Shown in pieces: positions 33,173 to 42,732 of a stretch of DNA of 64,000 bases. Made by a program: the position numbers and the translations under genes. The notes beneath the pieces were generated by a model. That model searched no databases. It was not told the origin of the DNA and saw nothing but the letters and a program-made list of their open reading frames with translations. The DNA comes from Anaerolineae bacterium (GTDB lineage: Bacteria > Chloroflexota > Anaerolineae > Aggregatilineales > Aggregatilineaceae). Every line of letters begins with the position of its first letter. Within the stretch, counting starts at the first letter, position 1. Where the stretch lies: assembly GCA_018432315.1 (NCBI GenBank), contig JAHDLB010000001.1:62001-126000 (forward strand), given 5' to 3'.

Positions 33173-33476
33173 AGGACTCCCATCGTCGTGAGCGAGATCC
33201 GGCGCAGGCGTCCGCGCGGGACGCTGAGCCGCCCATTCTAGCGCGTTCTGTCCAGAATTCACCCTGTATTTCCGGCGCGGGCTTGTGTAGAATGGGCGGT
33301 TCGTTCGATTTGCGCGGCGCGCCGTCCCACGGCGCGACTCACCCGTCAACCCGTCCGATAACGCCACCGTTTGCCGGTAGCAGACCGGCGCCCCACCGCC
33401 TCAGCGGGTGCCGTCTGCGCTCGTCCAGTCAGCGACCTAGTGACATCTTGTTTCCGCTCACAGAGAGGACCTGACC
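33173..33476. promoter_or_regulatory. Divergent intergenic region
   Basis: 304 bases between the GH31 and Hsp70-like genes. A TAGAAT -10 with upstream TG lies at 33288-33293 (rightward) and another TAGAAT (leftward) near 33239. An inverted repeat GCCGGT-N5-ACCGGC at 33373-33389 lies in the rightward leader. No gene is seen. Confidence 0.4.
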
Positions 33477-35909
33477 ATGATTGTCGGCATGGACTTCGGC
33501 ACGACGAACTCCGGTATGGCCGCCTACGATGGGCGCGATCTGCGCCTGCTCCCGATCGATCCGTCGAGCCCCAATCCCCACGTCGCCCGCACGGCGCTGT
33601 ACGTCACCAACCAGAAGCGCGTCTACGTGGGGCGCGGCGCGGTGGAAACCTACTACGAGCAGAATCTCAACCGCAAAGTGCGCTTCGAGCGGGTGTGGGT
33701 CGGCGAAGTGGTGATGAGCTTCGCCGAGCTGCCCGACTGGGTGCGCGACGTCTACATCGACAAAGACGTGCTCTCGCCGGGCCGCCTGTTCCTGTCGTTC
33801 AAAACCGGGCTGTCGTCGCCCAGCTACGTCGGGACGACGGTCGGCAGCGAGTTCTACTTCATCGAGGACATCGTCGCGCTGTACCTGTACGTGGCCCGGC
33901 GGCGGGCCGAGCGCCTGCTGGGCCAGGACGTGACGCGGATCGTCCTGGGGCGGCCCGTGCGCTTTTCGACCGACCCGCAGATGGACGCGCTGGCCCAGGG
34001 GCGGCTGCTGCGGGCGGCCTTTCGCGCCGGGTACGAGGAGGTGTTCCTCCAGCCGGAGCCGATCGCGGCGGCCTATTTCTACGAGACGACCATCCACCGC
34101 CCGGAGAACGTGCTCATCTTCGACTTCGGCGGCGGCACGCTCGACATCAGCATCGCGCGCCTGGGCGAGCCGGGCCGCCGCGCCATCCTGGCGACGGGCG
34201 GCATCCCGGTCGCCGGCGACGTGTTCGACCGGAAGCTGGTGCGCGCCCGGCTCCCGCGACACTTCGGCGAGGGCACGACTTACCGCGCCGCCGATGGCGC
34301 AACGCGCCCGGTGCCGGGCCACTATTTCGACGCGTTCTCGCACTGGCAGAACATGCTGGAGCTCAACACGGCGCACGAGCTGGACACGCTCGACCGCATC
34401 GCCGAGTCGGCGAGCCACCGGCGGCGCATTCGCGCGCTCATCGGCCTGATCTCCAGCAGCTATGGGCTGAAGATGTTCGACGAGGTGGAACGCGTCAAGC
34501 GCGAGCTGTCGGGCGCGCGCAGCGGGCTGATCCGGCTGGCGGGGCCGGGCTTCGACGTGACGCAGCTCGTCACGCGGGCCGAGTTCGAACGGCTGATCGA
34601 GGCGGACCGCGCCGCCATCGCCGCGCTGGTCGATGACGTGCTGCGCGGGGCCCAACTGCGCCCCGGCCAGATCGACGCCGTGATCCGCACCGGCGGCTCG
34701 TCGCAGATTCCCGCCTTCATCGAGCTGCTGCACGAGCGCTTCGGGCCGGAGCGCGTGCGCAGCATCGACACGTTCAGCAGCGTGACGTCCGGCCTGGGCG
34801 TCATCGGCCACCACATCGAGCGCGGCGACGTGGACGTGACTCCGCACCGCCCGGCGGAGGGCGCGGCTGGCGAGGGCGGGCGCTTCCGCGAGCAGGCGGA
34901 CCGGCCCACCGCTGCGCCCGCCGTCAACCTGGCCGTGGTCAAGAAGGTCGTCGATGTGCAGGAGAACGAGGCCGGCGAAGACGCGCCGCGCCTGGGGCTG
35001 GTGGCGCTGGTCGAGGGCGAGCCGCGCGCGGTCCTGTTCCGCGACGAGGGGATCGCCCGGCTGGACGGCACGCCGCTGGCCGGGATGGCGCCGGACGCGG
35101 TGATAGTCGCGCCCGCCAACGAGCGCGTGCTGCTGATGACGTCCGAATACCGGTTCCTGCTCAAGACGGTGAGCGAATTGGCCGACATGACGGCGATCGG
35201 GCTGCGGCTGGCCGATACCGACACGCTGTACATCGACCGGTTCGGCGCGGAGACGGTCGTGGCGCTGGCGCGGTGGTCCGCGCTGCAAGCGGCGCCCGCG
35301 CTGGTCTTCGTGTCGGACGCGGGTTACGGGCGGCGGCTGCGCGCCGAGACAGTGCTCCCCCGCTTCGAGGAGGTCGAGCCGTTTCGCCTGGAACGGCTGC
35401 CGGGGGACCCGGCGGGGCTGGTCCCGGCTGGCGCGGGTGAGGCGCTGGTGCTGGCGAGCAGCGCCGGGAACGTTCTGCGCCTGGATCCGGACGCGGTCGA
35501 CCTGGTCGAGAGCCGCCTGATGCGTGTTTCGAACGGCGGGCGCGTGATCGGCGCGGGGTGCGCGGGCGAGGGTGCCGTGCTGGTAGTGGCGAACGGCAAG
35601 GGGCGCGGCAGGCGCGTGCGGGTCGGCGCGCTGCCGGAAGGGACGCCGGGCGCTGCCGGGCAGCGCGTACTGGCGCGGGACCTGCGCGGGGTGGCGCTCG
35701 CGCAGCCGGGGGCGGCGGTGTGGGCGATCACCTCGCGGCGGCTCGTTCGCCTGGACCTCGATGGCCTGTGGGGCGGGGCGGAGAACGGCGCGGGCCAGCG
35801 CGCCCTGCTGCGGCTGGCGAAAGGCGAAACGCTGGCCGGGCTGGCCGCGCTCGCGCCGGGCGAGGGGCCGGTCGAGCCGGTGACCGGGCGGGACGGCGCC
35901 CGCGCGTGA
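33477..35909 (+). CDS. Hsp70-like ATPase fused to a GyrA-C-terminal-like beta-propeller
   Basis: 810 residues, AGAGGACC before the ATG. Residues 1-470 are an actin/Hsp70 ATPase, closest in pattern to YegD-type proteins: VGMDFGTTNSGMAAYD (phosphate 1), LIFDFGGGTLDISIARLG (phosphate 2), AVIRTGGSSQIPAFI (adenosine). The Hsp70 substrate-binding domain is absent. After a linker, residues about 500-790 contain five or six units patterned like DNA gyrase A C-terminal blades, such as RVLLMTSEYRFLLKTVSEL, FVSDAGYGRRLRAE, VLASSAGNVLRL and VVANGKGRGRRVRVGALPEG followed by TPGAAGQRV. The last resembles the E. coli GyrA blade with LPEATRGARG. Function unknown; DNA-linked chaperone-like action is speculation. 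Confidence 0.75.
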   Translation: MIVGMDFGTTNSGMAAYDGRDLRLLPIDPSSPNPHVARTALYVTNQKRVYVGRGAVETYYEQNLNRKVRFERVWVGEVVMSFAELPDWVRDVYIDKDVLSPGRLFLSFKTGLSSPSYVGTTVGSEFYFIEDIVALYLYVARRRAERLLGQDVTRIVLGRPVRFSTDPQMDALAQGRLLRAAFRAGYEEVFLQPEPIAAAYFYETTIHRPENVLIFDFGGGTLDISIARLGEPGRRAILATGGIPVAGDVFDRKLVRARLPRHFGEGTTYRAADGATRPVPGHYFDAFSHWQNMLELNTAHELDTLDRIAESASHRRRIRALIGLISSSYGLKMFDEVERVKRELSGARSGLIRLAGPGFDVTQLVTRAEFERLIEADRAAIAALVDDVLRGAQLRPGQIDAVIRTGGSSQIPAFIELLHERFGPERVRSIDTFSSVTSGLGVIGHHIERGDVDVTPHRPAEGAAGEGGRFREQADRPTAAPAVNLAVVKKVVDVQENEAGEDAPRLGLVALVEGEPRAVLFRDEGIARLDGTPLAGMAPDAVIVAPANERVLLMTSEYRFLLKTVSELADMTAIGLRLADTDTLYIDRFGAETVVALARWSALQAAPALVFVSDAGYGRRLRAETVLPRFEEVEPFRLERLPGDPAGLVPAGAGEALVLASSAGNVLRLDPDAVDLVESRLMRVSNGGRVIGAGCAGEGAVLVVANGKGRGRRVRVGALPEGTPGAAGQRVLARDLRGVALAQPGAAVWAITSRRLVRLDLDGLWGGAENGAGQRALLRLAKGETLAGLAALAPGEGPVEPVTGRDGARA

Positions 35910-35925
35910 CCGGGGCCCCCTGAAA

Positions 35926-35965
35926 AACGCGCCCCCCGCCGATCGGACGACCGGCGAGGGGCGTT
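35926..35965. terminator. Terminator between convergent genes
   Basis: AACGC/GCGTT, CCC/GGG and CGCCG/CGGCG helices stack into one long hairpin with small bulges, preceded by AAAAA, which reads as T5 on the - strand. It serves the Hsp70-like gene and the Gmad2/LysM gene. Confidence 0.65.
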
Positions 35966-35990
35966 GTGATTCTCTGCGGGCTGGCCGGTC

Positions 35991-38168
35991 TCAGCCGGCC
36001 AGTTCCGGCGGTGCCGCCTCGAACATCACGCCGATTCTGTCCGACTCGGTGACGGTGCCGTTGGGCTGCGTGGCGAACAGGACCACGATATGCGCCGCGG
36101 CGCTCGGCTCGTACACGCCGGGCAGCAGCTCGACCTGCCAGAAGCCGGTTTCCGGATCGGTGGGCGCGGTTTGCAGCGCCAGCACCTGCCCGCGCTCGTC
36201 GATCAGCGCCACGACCACGGTGAAGGTCGGCGCGCCGCGCGAGTACCCGGCCACCGGGATGATTTCGTTGGCGGGCAGTTCCGTGCGCGGCAGCGGGCTG
36301 CTGATGGATACGTACGTCTCGGCGGTGTTCACCGCGCCGAAGACCACGTCGACCCGCGCTTCGGCCTCGCGACCGCCGCCCTGGGCCGAGGTCACGTAGG
36401 CGGCGATGCTGCCGCGCGTGCCCGCCGGGGCGCTCACCGTCAGGTCAGCGGTCCAGTCACCGAGGCTGTCCACCTCGTTCGTCTTGGCGGTGGCCGGGAC
36501 CTGCACCAGGATATTCCCCTGGTCGTCGAGCGCCTCGACCACGATCTCGCCCTCGAACACGCTCTCGGCGCTCCCCGTCACGGTGAACGTCGATTCGGCC
36601 AGGGTGGTGTAGGGCAGCGGGCTGGTGATGGTGACCACCGGCACGGCGGTATCCGCGCCATAGGCCACGTTGACCGCCGCGCTGGCCGCCGGGGAGCCGT
36701 CCGCCGCTGAGGGGACGTAGGCATAGATCATGCCGCGCGTGCCCGCTTCAACCGCGAGCGTCAGCGATACCTCGAACTGGCCCGCTTCTTCCAGATCGAC
36801 CCGCTCCTCGGCCAGGACCAGGCCCAGGTTGTCCAGCGCGCGCACGACGACCGTCCCCGCACCGGCGACGGTCCCGCTGATGGTCGCTCGCGAGGGGAGA
36901 ACCGAGCCCGCCGTGGGGCTGGTGATCGCCAGCTCGACCGGCAGCGGTTCCGGCGAGGCGGGCGGGTTGGGCACGCGGATCTGCTGGCCGACGACGATCA
37001 CGCTGGCGTTGGTCAGGCAGTTGGCCTGGGCCAGCTCGGCGACCGTGCTGCCGACCTGCTGGGCGATGCTGAACAGGGTGTCGCCCGCGGCGACGGTGTA
37101 GGTGGTGGTCCAGTCTTCACGCGGCGCGCAGTTGGCCTGGAAGGTCACGTTCACCTGGTCGAAAGCGAGCACGCTGCCATCCGCCGGAGAGGTCGAGAAG
37201 GCGTAGATGTTGCCGGGCGTGTCGGCGGGCAGAATGACCGCCAGCGCGGCCTGCCAGTTGCCCTCGCCCTCCGCCGCGCTGCTGGTGACGGCCCGCTGGG
37301 CGAGCACGTTGTTGGCGCTGTCGCGCGCCTGCACCACGACGTTCCCTTCGGGGATGTTGAGGCTGGTGCCGGTCACGGTGAAGCCGTTGAGCGTGCCGAC
37401 GAACGAGCCCGCCGCCGGGCCGGTGATGCGGATCGAGCGCATGGGCGCCTCGCCGTAGATCACGCTGACGCTGGCCTGGGCCGCGACGCTGCCATCGTCC
37501 GCCGAGGTCGAGAAGGCGACGATCTTGCCGATGGTGCCCGCCGCCACGGAGACGGTGAGCGAGGCTTCCCAGTCGCCGGTGCCGCCCAGCGCCGAGCCTT
37601 CGGCGGTGGTCACCACCTCGGCCAGCACGGCATCGCCCGCGCCCAGCGCCCGCACGGTCACGACGCCTTCGTGGATGGCGGTCGCCGTGCCGGTGGCGTT
37701 GATCGCGCCGTCATTGGTGACGATGGCGCCGGGGGTCGGGCTGGTGATCGTGATCGCCGCCTGGGGGCCGGCGGTCCCATAGACGACGTTCACCTGCGCC
37801 TGGGCGACGACGCTGCCATCGTCCGCGGACACGGCGAACGCGTAGATGCTGCCCGGCGTGCCGGGATCGACGTCGACGGCCAGCGTGGCCGACCAGTCGC
37901 CGGTGCCGCCGACTTCGGGCGCGTCGGTGGTGACGGGCTGCTCGGCCAGGATGCCGCCCGTCGAGTCCAGCGCGCGGACGGTCAGGCTGTTCTCGAACAG
38001 CGCGGTGCCCGTGCCGGATACGCTGATGGCGCCGAGGTCTTCCAGAATGGTCCCGTCCGCCGGGCTGGTGATCGTGATTGCCGGGGTAGGGGTGTCGTCC
38101 TGAGCCGCGACGCTCCCAAAGGGGATCGCCAGGGCCAGGATCAGTAACGTAGCTGCCAGTCTTCGCAT
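35991..38168 (-). CDS. Secreted protein with six Gmad2-type Ig-like domains and a central LysM
   Basis: 725 residues. Signal peptide (1-22, ending SVAAQ). Three Gmad2-like beta-sandwich repeats of about 110 residues come first, each starting with a variant of ITITSPADGTILED. A LysM domain follows (about 350-400; YTVAAGDTLFSIAQQVG, IVVGQQIRVPNPP), then three more Gmad2-like repeats (ELAITSPTAGSVLP, VVTITSPLPYTTLA, YVSISSPLPRTELP). Gmad2 is known from spore-germination lipoproteins and many surface proteins; LysM binds peptidoglycan or related glycans. Probably a cell-surface scaffold or adhesion protein. Single leftward gene. Confidence 0.82.
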   Translation of the reverse strand: MRRLAATLLILALAIPFGSVAAQDDTPTPAITITSPADGTILEDLGAISVSGTGTALFENSLTVRALDSTGGILAEQPVTTDAPEVGGTGDWSATLAVDVDPGTPGSIYAFAVSADDGSVVAQAQVNVVYGTAGPQAAITITSPTPGAIVTNDGAINATGTATAIHEGVVTVRALGAGDAVLAEVVTTAEGSALGGTGDWEASLTVSVAAGTIGKIVAFSTSADDGSVAAQASVSVIYGEAPMRSIRITGPAAGSFVGTLNGFTVTGTSLNIPEGNVVVQARDSANNVLAQRAVTSSAAEGEGNWQAALAVILPADTPGNIYAFSTSPADGSVLAFDQVNVTFQANCAPREDWTTTYTVAAGDTLFSIAQQVGSTVAELAQANCLTNASVIVVGQQIRVPNPPASPEPLPVELAITSPTAGSVLPSRATISGTVAGAGTVVVRALDNLGLVLAEERVDLEEAGQFEVSLTLAVEAGTRGMIYAYVPSAADGSPAASAAVNVAYGADTAVPVVTITSPLPYTTLAESTFTVTGSAESVFEGEIVVEALDDQGNILVQVPATAKTNEVDSLGDWTADLTVSAPAGTRGSIAAYVTSAQGGGREAEARVDVVFGAVNTAETYVSISSPLPRTELPANEIIPVAGYSRGAPTFTVVVALIDERGQVLALQTAPTDPETGFWQVELLPGVYEPSAAAHIVVLFATQPNGTVTESDRIGVMFEAAPPELAG

Positions 38169-40286: not shown

Positions 40287-40314
40287 TATAATGGCGTTAT
40301 GTAAGTGGCATAAC
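40287..40314 (+). promoter_or_regulatory. NLR gene -10 element with adjacent inverted repeat
   Basis: A perfect TATAAT (40287-40292) without a good -35 is followed four bases on by the inverted repeat GTTATG-N7-CATAAC (40296-40314). The repeat would overlap the transcription start. This arrangement suggests an activator- or repressor-controlled promoter. Confidence 0.55.
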
Positions 40315-40350
40315 AAGTCCTGCGCAAAGGTAACCTCACCCGGCCAGACG

Positions 40351-42732
40351 ATGACAACCGAACTCCGCATCTTCATCAGCTCCAAAATGACCGAACTCGC
40401 CGCCGAGCGCGGGGCGCTGCACCGGCTGCTGCCCGCGCTGAGCAGCGACCTGGTGGCGCTCCAGCCGTGGGTGTTCGAGGACGACGCGCCCGCCGCCGAC
40501 GCCTCGATCCGCAGCGTGTACCTGGACGCGCTCAAGCGGTCGGCGCTGTACCTGGGCCTGTTCTGGAACGAGTACGGCGAATGGACGATCGACGAGTTCG
40601 AGCGGGCGACCGAGTGGGGCATCGACCGGCACATCTACGTCAAAAACGTGGACGCCGCGCGGCGCGACGAACGGCTGCAAGCCTTCCTCGACGAGCAGAG
40701 CAACGTGATCGCGGGTATCACGCCCAAGTGGTTCGAGTCCGTGGACGAGCTGGTCGAGCAGGTGCGCAAGTCGATCGCGGTGTGGCTGCGCGACCGGCTG
40801 CTCCGGCGGCCCGGCGACACGAGCGCCGCGCTGATCGCGTTCAGTGACGACGTGCCCGGCCTGCCGCACCGGTTGATCGGGCGGGACGCGGCGCTCGGCG
40901 AGATCCGGCGGCTGTTGGACGAGGGCGGGCGCGTGCTGCTGCAAGGCTTCGGCGGCATGGGCAAGAGCGCGCTGGCCGCGTCGGCGGCGGCGGACTGGCT
41001 CGACGAGGATCGCGGCGCGGTGTTGTGGCTGCGCGCCGGGAGCGACAGCGCCGGCACCCTGTTCGAGGCGCTGGCCCGCCCGCTAGGCGCGCAGGCTGAG
41101 GTCGCCCAGGCGCCGGGCGACGAACAGGCCAAGACCGTCCGGCGGCTGCTGGCCGAGCACGCGGTGTCGCTGGTGGTGCTCGACGACGTGTGGGACGGCG
41201 CCGCGCTCAACCAGGTGATCAAGGCGATCCCGCGCCGGACGCCGGTGCTGGTCACCGCACAGCAGCGCTATGCCCTGGATCACATCATCGAGGTGGGCAA
41301 GCTGGCCGAGGCCGACGCGCTCGCCCTGCTGGGCGCCTACGCCGGGCAGGACGTCCGCGATGACCCCGCCGCGCGCGAGCTGTGCCAGCAGGTGGGCTAT
41401 CACGCCTTCGCGCTGGAGATCGCCGGGAAGACGCTCAAGGTGGACCGCATCGCGCCCGGCGAGCTGCTGGCGCGCATCGCTGCCGCGCCGCACGACCTCG
41501 CCATGCCCGAAGACTTCGCCGAGGAGGGCCGCACCAGCACCACCGAGCTGCTGACCGCCAGCCTCGTCGCGCTCGACGACGACGCGCGGCAGGCGTTCCT
41601 GGCGTTCGGCGGGATGTTCGCGCCGCAGGCCACGCCCGAACTGCTGGCCCGGTCGATGGCGCGGGACGAGGCGGACGTGACCGAGGCGCTGATCACGCTC
41701 CAGCGGCGCGGGCTGGCCGACCGGGTGCGCGAATCCGACCGGGCGGCGGCGTTCTACCGCGTGCACGACCTGGCGCACAGCTACGCGCGGGCGGTGGCCG
41801 GTGAGGCCGAGTCCCGGCGGCGGGCCGTGCTCGACGCCTGCCGGGCCTACGCCGAGGGCCACGAGAGCGACCTGCCCGCGCTGGATGCCGAGCTGCCCAA
41901 CCTGCTGGGCGCGGCGGACGCGGCCCGCCAGGGCGGCGACGATGGCGTGCTGGTGGCGATCATGCGGGCGCTGGCCGGTCCGTACCTGCTGGCCTACGGG
42001 CACACGCCCCGCTATCTCGATCTGCTGGTGACGGCGGTCGAGGCGGCGGCGCGGCTGGGGCCGGACCACGACGAAACGCGCCATTTCATGCTGGGGCGCT
42101 GCGGGAACATCCACTACGACCGCGGCGACCTGCCCGGCGCGCTGACCTGCTACCAGGGCGCGCTGGCGCTGGCCCGCGACCTGAACCGCCGCGACCGCGA
42201 GGCGATGCTGCTCTGCGCGGTGGGCAAGGTGCTGGCCGACCAGGGCGCTGACGGGGCCGGGGATCACTTCGCCGAGGCGTACCGGATCGCGACGGGGCTG
42301 GACGAGGGCTTCCTGGTGGCGTTCGTGCTGGAGCACCAGGGCTATTACGCCCAGGTGCGGGGCGATTTCGAGGCGGCGCGCGCCATCTTCGCCGAGGAGG
42401 CCGAGCTGGCGGCGCGCATCAACGACGACGAGACGCGCTTCTTCGCCCTGCTCAACCTGGGATCGGCGGAGCACAAGCTCGACCGGCTTGACGCGGCGCT
42501 GGCCCAACACCGCGCGGCCCTGGCGCTGGCCGAGGCGGCGGACAACCCGATCTGGCAGGCGCACGCGCTCCAGTCGATGGGCGAGGACCATCACCGGCTG
42601 GGTGACGCTGACCCGGCGCGCCAGTGTCTGGGCCGGGCCCGGAGCCTGTTCCACGAGAGCGGGATGCAGGCCAAAGTGGCCGAGGTCGAAGCGTATATGC
42701 AATCATCTGACTACCCGGTCGCACCGGAATAG
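40351..42732 (+). CDS. DUF4062-NB-ARC-TPR protein (bacterial NLR/STAND NTPase)
   Basis: 793 residues from ATG 40351; the frame opens earlier, but LRIFISSKMTELAAERGAL at the start fits a DUF4062 N-terminus. Domains: DUF4062 (about 1-120; a TIR-like fold family used as an effector or adaptor), NB-ARC (about 175-430) with P-loop GFGGMGKSAL (about 200), Walker B SLVVLDDVWD (about 275) and GYHAFALEIAG in place of the GLPLAL motif, a winged helix (about 430-520) and TPR repeats (about 585-780; GDLPGALTCYQGALALARDL). Such STAND proteins act as ligand-triggered switches, many in phage defence. The ribosome site is weak. It forms a likely operon with the following subtilase, 18 bases downstream. Confidence 0.88.
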   Translation: MTTELRIFISSKMTELAAERGALHRLLPALSSDLVALQPWVFEDDAPAADASIRSVYLDALKRSALYLGLFWNEYGEWTIDEFERATEWGIDRHIYVKNVDAARRDERLQAFLDEQSNVIAGITPKWFESVDELVEQVRKSIAVWLRDRLLRRPGDTSAALIAFSDDVPGLPHRLIGRDAALGEIRRLLDEGGRVLLQGFGGMGKSALAASAAADWLDEDRGAVLWLRAGSDSAGTLFEALARPLGAQAEVAQAPGDEQAKTVRRLLAEHAVSLVVLDDVWDGAALNQVIKAIPRRTPVLVTAQQRYALDHIIEVGKLAEADALALLGAYAGQDVRDDPAARELCQQVGYHAFALEIAGKTLKVDRIAPGELLARIAAAPHDLAMPEDFAEEGRTSTTELLTASLVALDDDARQAFLAFGGMFAPQATPELLARSMARDEADVTEALITLQRRGLADRVRESDRAAAFYRVHDLAHSYARAVAGEAESRRRAVLDACRAYAEGHESDLPALDAELPNLLGAADAARQGGDDGVLVAIMRALAGPYLLAYGHTPRYLDLLVTAVEAAARLGPDHDETRHFMLGRCGNIHYDRGDLPGALTCYQGALALARDLNRRDREAMLLCAVGKVLADQGADGAGDHFAEAYRIATGLDEGFLVAFVLEHQGYYAQVRGDFEAARAIFAEEAELAARINDDETRFFALLNLGSAEHKLDRLDAALAQHRAALALAEAADNPIWQAHALQSMGEDHHRLGDADPARQCLGRARSLFHESGMQAKVAEVEAYMQSSDYPVAPE

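Follow-up and report, generated by a model that had tools for sequence, protein, structure and literature searches.

A YegD-type Hsp70 ATPase fused to a GyrA/ParC-type β-pinwheel, and its two-gene counterpart, in Chloroflexota

The window analysed here (the whole stretch of 64,000 nucleotides from an Anaerolineae bacterium, contig JAHDLB010000001.1, positions 62,001 to 126,000 of the forward strand) encodes a protein in which a YegD-type Hsp70 ATPase is joined to a β-pinwheel of the GyrA/ParC type. That this pairing is real and conserved is well supported, and it is undescribed as far as could be seen, no description of an Hsp70-pinwheel protein or operon having been found in the open-licence literature by title or abstract opening. 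A preliminary description of the gene, made from the sequence, knew of no described protein of this build, and the statement holds as far as the literature search reached; the two-gene form, the distribution and the YegD-type ATPase without a substrate-binding domain lay outside its coverage.

Hsp70 ATPases are the motor of peptide-binding chaperones, and for the YegD-type members, in which the peptide-binding domain is missing, no function has to our knowledge been settled. For this branch the recurring gyrase-type pinwheel partner is a concrete lead, with the prediction that DNA, or a partner sitting on DNA, would be bound in an ATP-dependent manner. Moreover, the gyrase-type pinwheel occurs as a free module outside the topoisomerases, a situation for which Gac of Borrelia was the only other case that we met. 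Within the accessible portions of the sources, PMC7159879 treats Hsp70 and propellers and is silent on gyrase, PMC8195603 makes no mention of GyrA, and PMC9218822 reports that none of the pinwheel-fold members found is highly repetitive. A link of YegD to RNase E was considered and rejected, as the accessible portion of PMC13232886 concerns YegJ and yegD expression and not binding by YegD.

Organization of the fused gene

The gene (ORF 33477-35909, forward strand) is one open frame, running from an ATG at 33477 to a stop codon at 35907-35909 and encoding 810 amino acids. Its features, in window coordinates and with the evidence in brackets, are as follows.

33477..35909, + strand: whole gene, YegD-type Hsp70 ATPase fused to GyrA/ParC-type pinwheel, 810 aa (open frame, homologous fused ORFs)
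33477..34811, + strand: Hsp70 nucleotide-binding domain, residues 1-445 (PF00012, 2.1e-25; NF008673, 1.7e-40, under its cut-off; DnaK, Z 34.4)
33492..33515, + strand: phosphate-1 motif DFGTTNSG, residues 6-13 (sequence, alignments of relatives)
34119..34145, + strand: phosphate-2 motif FDFGGGTLD, residues 215-223 (sequence, alignments of relatives)
34689..34712, + strand: adenosine motif TGGSSQIP, residues 405-412 (sequence, alignments of relatives)
34812..34904, + strand: linker, residues 446-476, part of it modelled with low confidence (pLDDT <50 at residues 462-478)
34905..35864, + strand: GyrA/ParC-type β-pinwheel, residues 477-796 (PF03989, profile and fold matches)
35580..35672, + strand: blade matched by PF03989, residues 702-732 (Pfam scan)
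35865..35909, + strand: C-terminal tail of low model confidence, residues 797-810, plus stop codon (pLDDT <50 at residues 794-810)

A scan of positions 33250-36100 found no sigma-70-type promoter, a result that says little for such a genome.

The ATPase domain

The N-terminal half belongs to the Hsp70 superfamily. PF00012 scored 89.4 bits against a cut-off of 20.6 (E 2.1e-25), and a model of the full-length protein (nine sequences, pLDDT 77.4, pTM 0.72) superimposed on DnaK with a Z of 34.4 over 352 residues; the 50 fold matches listed for this model are all Hsp70 or Hsp110, with the exception of one ciliary complex with an uninformative title. The nucleotide motifs are invariant, or nearly so, in 15 aligned fused sequences including that of the window, except at residue 409. 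Residues T9, D216, T221 and G406 align with the T, D, T and G of the DnaK nucleotide motifs, and these four are kept in 15/15 fused sequences, in 16/16 paired or unlinked relatives and in 14/14 DnaKs. The profile score, the conservation of the motifs and the fit to DnaK thus bear out the initial assignment of an Hsp70-type ATPase with all three nucleotide motifs. The DnaK alignment did not place a lysine equivalent to DnaK K70, for which K109 is a candidate by eye, and the same alignment gave no match to the DnaK E171 pattern.

Judged by sequence, the domain is a relative of YegD that lies outside the equivalog rule: the YegD equivalog profile NF008673 aligned over positions 1-443 of its 450 and scored 139.2 bits, the curated cut-off being 331. 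As in E. coli YegD (NF008673/PRK11678), an Hsp70 nucleotide-binding domain is present without a substrate-binding domain; the window protein differs from YegD in scoring below the equivalog cut-off and in bearing a pinwheel of about 320 residues. With DnaK and the canonical Hsp70s it shares the nucleotide-binding fold and the phosphate and adenosine motifs, but it is without their peptide-binding domain and has the pinwheel there instead, residues 477-796 folding as a GyrA/ParC pinwheel and not as a canonical DnaK substrate-binding domain.

Many farther relatives match only up to about residue 446. Thirteen of these were read, of which eight are 442-454 aa in length and five are 608-612 aa. 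The substrate-binding domain had been taken to be replaced in the fused protein, and on this point the preliminary description has to be amended, the eight propeller-less relatives of 442-454 aa being of ATPase length alone. A substrate-binding domain would not fit into YegD-type relatives of about 450 aa; nothing was replaced, and the pinwheel is an addition to an Hsp70 that already lacked this domain.

Other C-terminal additions to the YegD-type ATPase were also observed. Seven proteins of about 610 aa (L018-L022, L089 and L090) are extended at the C terminus by about 165 aa, a region without a Pfam name in the one scanned (L020), and group together in the first tree (SH-aLRT 96). Three YegD-type open frames of 557-576 aa (L239-L241) have a C-terminal addition of about 100 aa that is unlike the 610-aa form.

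The C-terminal pinwheel

The C-terminal domain of GyrA folds as six blades, and the evidence supports residues 477-796 as a propeller of this GyrA/ParC type rather than a generic one. The C-terminal 350 aa alone scored 28.8 bits with PF03989 against a cut-off of 27, and the full-length protein scored 22.5 bits, below the cut-off, with the consequence that standard annotation conceals the architecture. The matched residues 702-732 hold most of the unit that had been quoted as GyrA-like in the preliminary description. When six homologous C-terminal regions (that of the window and five from relatives) were aligned, PF03989 was found in 5/6 scanned singly at a loose limit of E up to 1, and the profile built from the six placed GyrA C-terminal domains at the top of its PDB matches (3uc1 at 5.1e-11), the best non-topoisomerase match being a designed protein at 0.014. 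Since GyrA C-terminal domains are the best matches of this profile, the resemblance is not due to chance. Likewise, a comparison of profiles, using 43/44 fused C-terminal regions (one was dropped for length) and 17 GyrA/ParC-like sequences, aligned 277 columns with a probability of 99.4% and an E of 2.6e-21. Three fused relatives (L070, L073 and L091) gave no PF03989 match at E≤0.01.

The fold of residues 477-796 was predicted with AlphaFold2 from eight sequences (mean pLDDT 83.7, pTM 0.82). Foldseek returned 129 PDB matches for the pinwheel model at E up to 10, of which 20 were at E≤0.001; 20/20 of these are GyrA or ParC entries, and the next match is at 0.087. A second structural aligner gave a Z of 26.0 to 1suu (3.1 Å over 268 residues), against a Z of only 3.6 for the best unrelated propeller, WDR55, which rules out a generic β-propeller. 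The structure prediction hence upholds the earlier proposal of a GyrA-type propeller, both in the identity of the closest folds and in the gap between the two Z values.

The window protein therefore has the fold of the GyrA/ParC C-terminal domain (PF03989), as its Z of 26.0 to 1suu indicates, but differs from GyrA and ParC in being fused to an Hsp70 ATPase and in having neither the type IIA catalytic domain nor the gyrase box. A Pfam scan of the protein at E up to 10 listed four families, and the catalytic domain, PF00521, was not one of them.

Distribution of the fused form

Including that of the window, 44 distinct fused ORFs are known, so the join is not an assembly artefact. Within a set of 61 close genomes, own included, near full-length relatives occur in four others at 54-55% identity (G003, G005, G008 and G011) and in a further one at 31% (G032); a relative in G010, cut by the contig end, is 69% identical over residues 1-378. 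In the order, the fused form was found in 15/154 genomes at E 6.9e-46 or better, and among the matches listed the 15 loci ranking next consisted of 14 GyrA/ParC-like loci and one separate pinwheel. A match extending into the pinwheel was present in 31/396 genomes of the class sample, where the two best candidates per genome were scored. In the phylum sample, with a limit of 1e-130, there was a match in 35/400 genomes, three of which had one extending into the pinwheel.

Those fused relatives that have names come from metagenome assemblies of Chloroflexi, Ardenticatenaceae and Anaerolineales. Plasmid records numbering 174 matched, none of them over 80% of the query. A first search of genome contigs with the single window protein gave no match; in a second, the best 80 of 507 matches were kept.

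The two-gene form

Separate pinwheel genes encode about 390-430 aa, consisting of a helical N-terminal region followed by the pinwheel. Searches with pinwheel and ATPase profiles located 11 loci in which such a gene lies immediately upstream of, and on the same strand as, YegD. Nine of these 11 fall among the 20 loci L076-L095 of the search that kept the best 80 of 507 matches, the remaining 11 of the 20 being L081 and L083 (pinwheel elsewhere in the genome), L091 (fused) and eight in which the stretch covered contains no pinwheel. L068, L199 and L200 are separate pinwheel genes with no YegD within the stretch examined. A profile of 14 separate pinwheel proteins matched 1wp5, the C-terminal domain of topoisomerase IV, at 2.8e-24 and GyrA at 6.4e-22, PF03989 being found in only 4/14 even at E up to 1, and their N-terminal part showed weak matches to several coiled-coil families. 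Apart from the pinwheel gene, no neighbour group was common to more than six of 33 YegD loci.

Co-occurrence was assessed in the class sample. A separate pinwheel was present in 21/396 genomes at E≤1e-30 and a YegD match (E≤1e-60) in 101/396, including 21/21 of those with a separate pinwheel (hypergeometric 6e-14, kinship ignored). The overlap between these 21 genomes and the 31 fused ones is 0, for which the chance among the 101 is 1.5e-4. The pinwheel is adjacent to YegD in 18/21: in 17 it lies upstream on the same strand, within 150 bp of the YegD match, and in G318 it is adjacent too, the YegD match there being in two parts. One 409-aa ORF lies between the two in G155, and they are unlinked in G023 and G412, the only YegD found in the latter being the unlinked one, of the 610-aa type. 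In family f7, YegD was found in 7/11 genomes and the pinwheel in those same seven, in six of them on another contig.

At L230:4460-5686 the pinwheel gene and YegD are separated by a 409-aa open frame, and at L232:278-4182 a separate pinwheel gene is followed by two tandem YegD genes.

In 27 genomes of other classes and three of family f4, all with YegD, every frame listed for the pinwheel profile at E≤1e-10 was as long as a GyrA (≥825 aa). Two genomes, G341 and G479, both of family f11, encode YegDs that lie outside the partnered clade, and neither has a pinwheel. A pinwheel is missing for many YegD genes of Chloroflexota and is thus not always required by the ATPase; such absences weigh less than the presences, because draft genomes may miss genes.

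The pairing looks real, since relatives make both halves as neighbouring genes in a Rosetta-stone pattern, and the two parts appear to work together because relatives encode them either adjacent or at separate loci of one genome. Gene arrangement therefore gives strong support for the view that the Hsp70 half and the pinwheel act together.

Phylogeny of the ATPase domain

A tree of 119 ATPase domains was obtained by a quick search with SH-aLRT support only, identical, short and some further domains being omitted. One clade of 69 rows (SH-aLRT 99) unites the fused proteins, all but three, with the paired and the unlinked YegDs. One side of this clade (99) holds 42 fused and two contig-cut rows, and the other (99) holds 18 paired, five unlinked and two second copies, the last from genomes whose pinwheel accompanies another YegD. 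The three remaining fused proteins (L091, L245 and L246) lie far from the clade, with a support of 100. On this tree, which covers the ATPase domain alone and has long branches, such a distant second fused clade suggests that the join arose at least twice.

Charge and DNA binding

The gyrase box is needed for wrapping of DNA by gyrase. The strict pattern, Q[KR][RK]GG[KRN]G, was found in 0/44 fused and 0/25 separate pinwheels; among the controls it occurs in 3/17 GyrA/ParC-like sequences of the same set, and it is present in the GyrA of the window genome itself (L252). Because only 3/17 controls have the strict pattern, its absence is weak evidence. Columns that are basic in GyrA contain K/R at a frequency of 0.355 in the fused pinwheels, compared with 0.090 elsewhere (19 columns), and of 0.233 in the separate pinwheels, compared with 0.087 (22 columns). 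Columns that are acidic in GyrA contain D/E at 0.304 compared with 0.095 (fused) and at 0.359 compared with 0.088 (separate), and since these are kept likewise, the kept basic columns reflect common descent. In these alignments, conserved charge neither proves nor excludes DNA binding by the pinwheel. The C-terminal net charge ranges from -17.3 to +0.7 in 15 members; overall charge was discarded as uninformative about DNA binding, as the GyrA controls overlap this range (-1.4, -3.3 and -13.4, from the only 3/15 GyrA-matching loci with the pattern used).

Gac of Borrelia burgdorferi, a GyrA C-terminal domain made separately, binds DNA (PMC10127594), and in both cases a GyrA-type pinwheel is found outside gyrase. 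However, Gac is read from inside gyrA, and the accessible portion of that source mentions no ATPase partner for it (PMC10127594), whereas the pinwheels described here have their own genes and are tied to an Hsp70.

Proposed function and alternatives

The fused protein is most likely a putative ATP-controlled module that binds DNA or a partner, as inferred from its two halves. The preliminary description had suggested an ATP-switched protein holding nucleic acid or a protein partner, of which the hold on nucleic acid is likewise putative. A more specific reading, to which we give just short of an even chance, is that of a putative ATP switch which sets nucleic-acid binding by the pinwheel in a chromosome-associated factor. 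The pinwheel would be the binding half, which by analogy with the GyrA C-terminal domain and Borrelia Gac may bind, and probably bend, nucleic acid, and the Hsp70 half would be an ATP/ADP switch timing its binding and release. Where the two are separate genes, two pinwheels are probably paired through the helical N-terminal region (a coiled coil by look), and YegD would act in trans on the paired-pinwheel complex; in the fused form the ATPase would be attached directly to the pinwheel. The expected product would be an ATP-controlled chromosome-associated factor and not a general protein-folding chaperone. A still broader proposal is possible, if doubtful, namely an undescribed class in which loading or release of a DNA-bending pinwheel of the gyrase type would be the work of an Hsp70-fold ATPase, the two being encoded as an operon of two genes in some Chloroflexota and having been fused at least twice. 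If true, Hsp70 allostery would have been re-used for the control of DNA architecture rather than for protein folding.

Alternatively, the pinwheel may bind another protein, for instance a topoisomerase or a condensin of the SMC type, with the Hsp70 half remodelling the complex. The C-terminal domain of ParC binds MukB, and the ParC-MukB structure 4mn4 is among the fold matches; the missing gyrase box and a domain that is mostly neutral or acidic are also consistent with a protein partner. We nevertheless consider this unlikely, given that in the loci compared the fused gene has no widely conserved neighbour, that the stand-alone YegD has only the pinwheel gene, and that the two type IIA A subunits of the window genome each bear PF03989 repeats. 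Because both A subunits have these repeats, no C-terminal domain is missing in this genome, and a split topoisomerase without its own C-terminal domain is ruled out for it.

The pinwheel might also have nothing to do with DNA and instead bind peptides, as a substitute for the usual module of a chaperone. Other C-terminal additions to YegD exist (the 608-612-aa and 557-576-aa forms), which makes the YegD-type ATPase look like a base on which modules can be exchanged; against this, the module is specifically of the GyrA/ParC type and is fused to YegD in two distant clades, and the probability that we attach to the peptide-binding role is low.

By analogy with ParM-ParR, an actin-like filament system moving DNA with the pinwheel as DNA adaptor would fit an actin-fold ATPase gene that adjoins a possible DNA-binding gene, yet the 50 listed fold matches are Hsp70 or Hsp110, bar the one ciliary complex, which makes such a system very improbable. 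A chance join or assembly artefact can be dismissed, being refuted by the number of genomes (44 distinct fused ORFs; 31/396 class-sample genomes).

Genes near the fused gene

None of the neighbours of the fused gene is common to more than three of the 24 loci compared, and PADLOC models gave no match at E≤0.01 for the window protein, one separate pinwheel and one YegD. A defence system was rejected on these two grounds (no PADLOC match for the three proteins and no neighbour in more than 3/24 fused-gene loci). Just downstream of the fused gene, on the opposite strand, window positions 35991-38168 encode a protein in which a LysM domain accompanies five Gmad2 stretches, and positions 40291-42732, also near the fused gene, encode a STAND-type NTPase with DUF4062, NB-ARC and TPR repeats.
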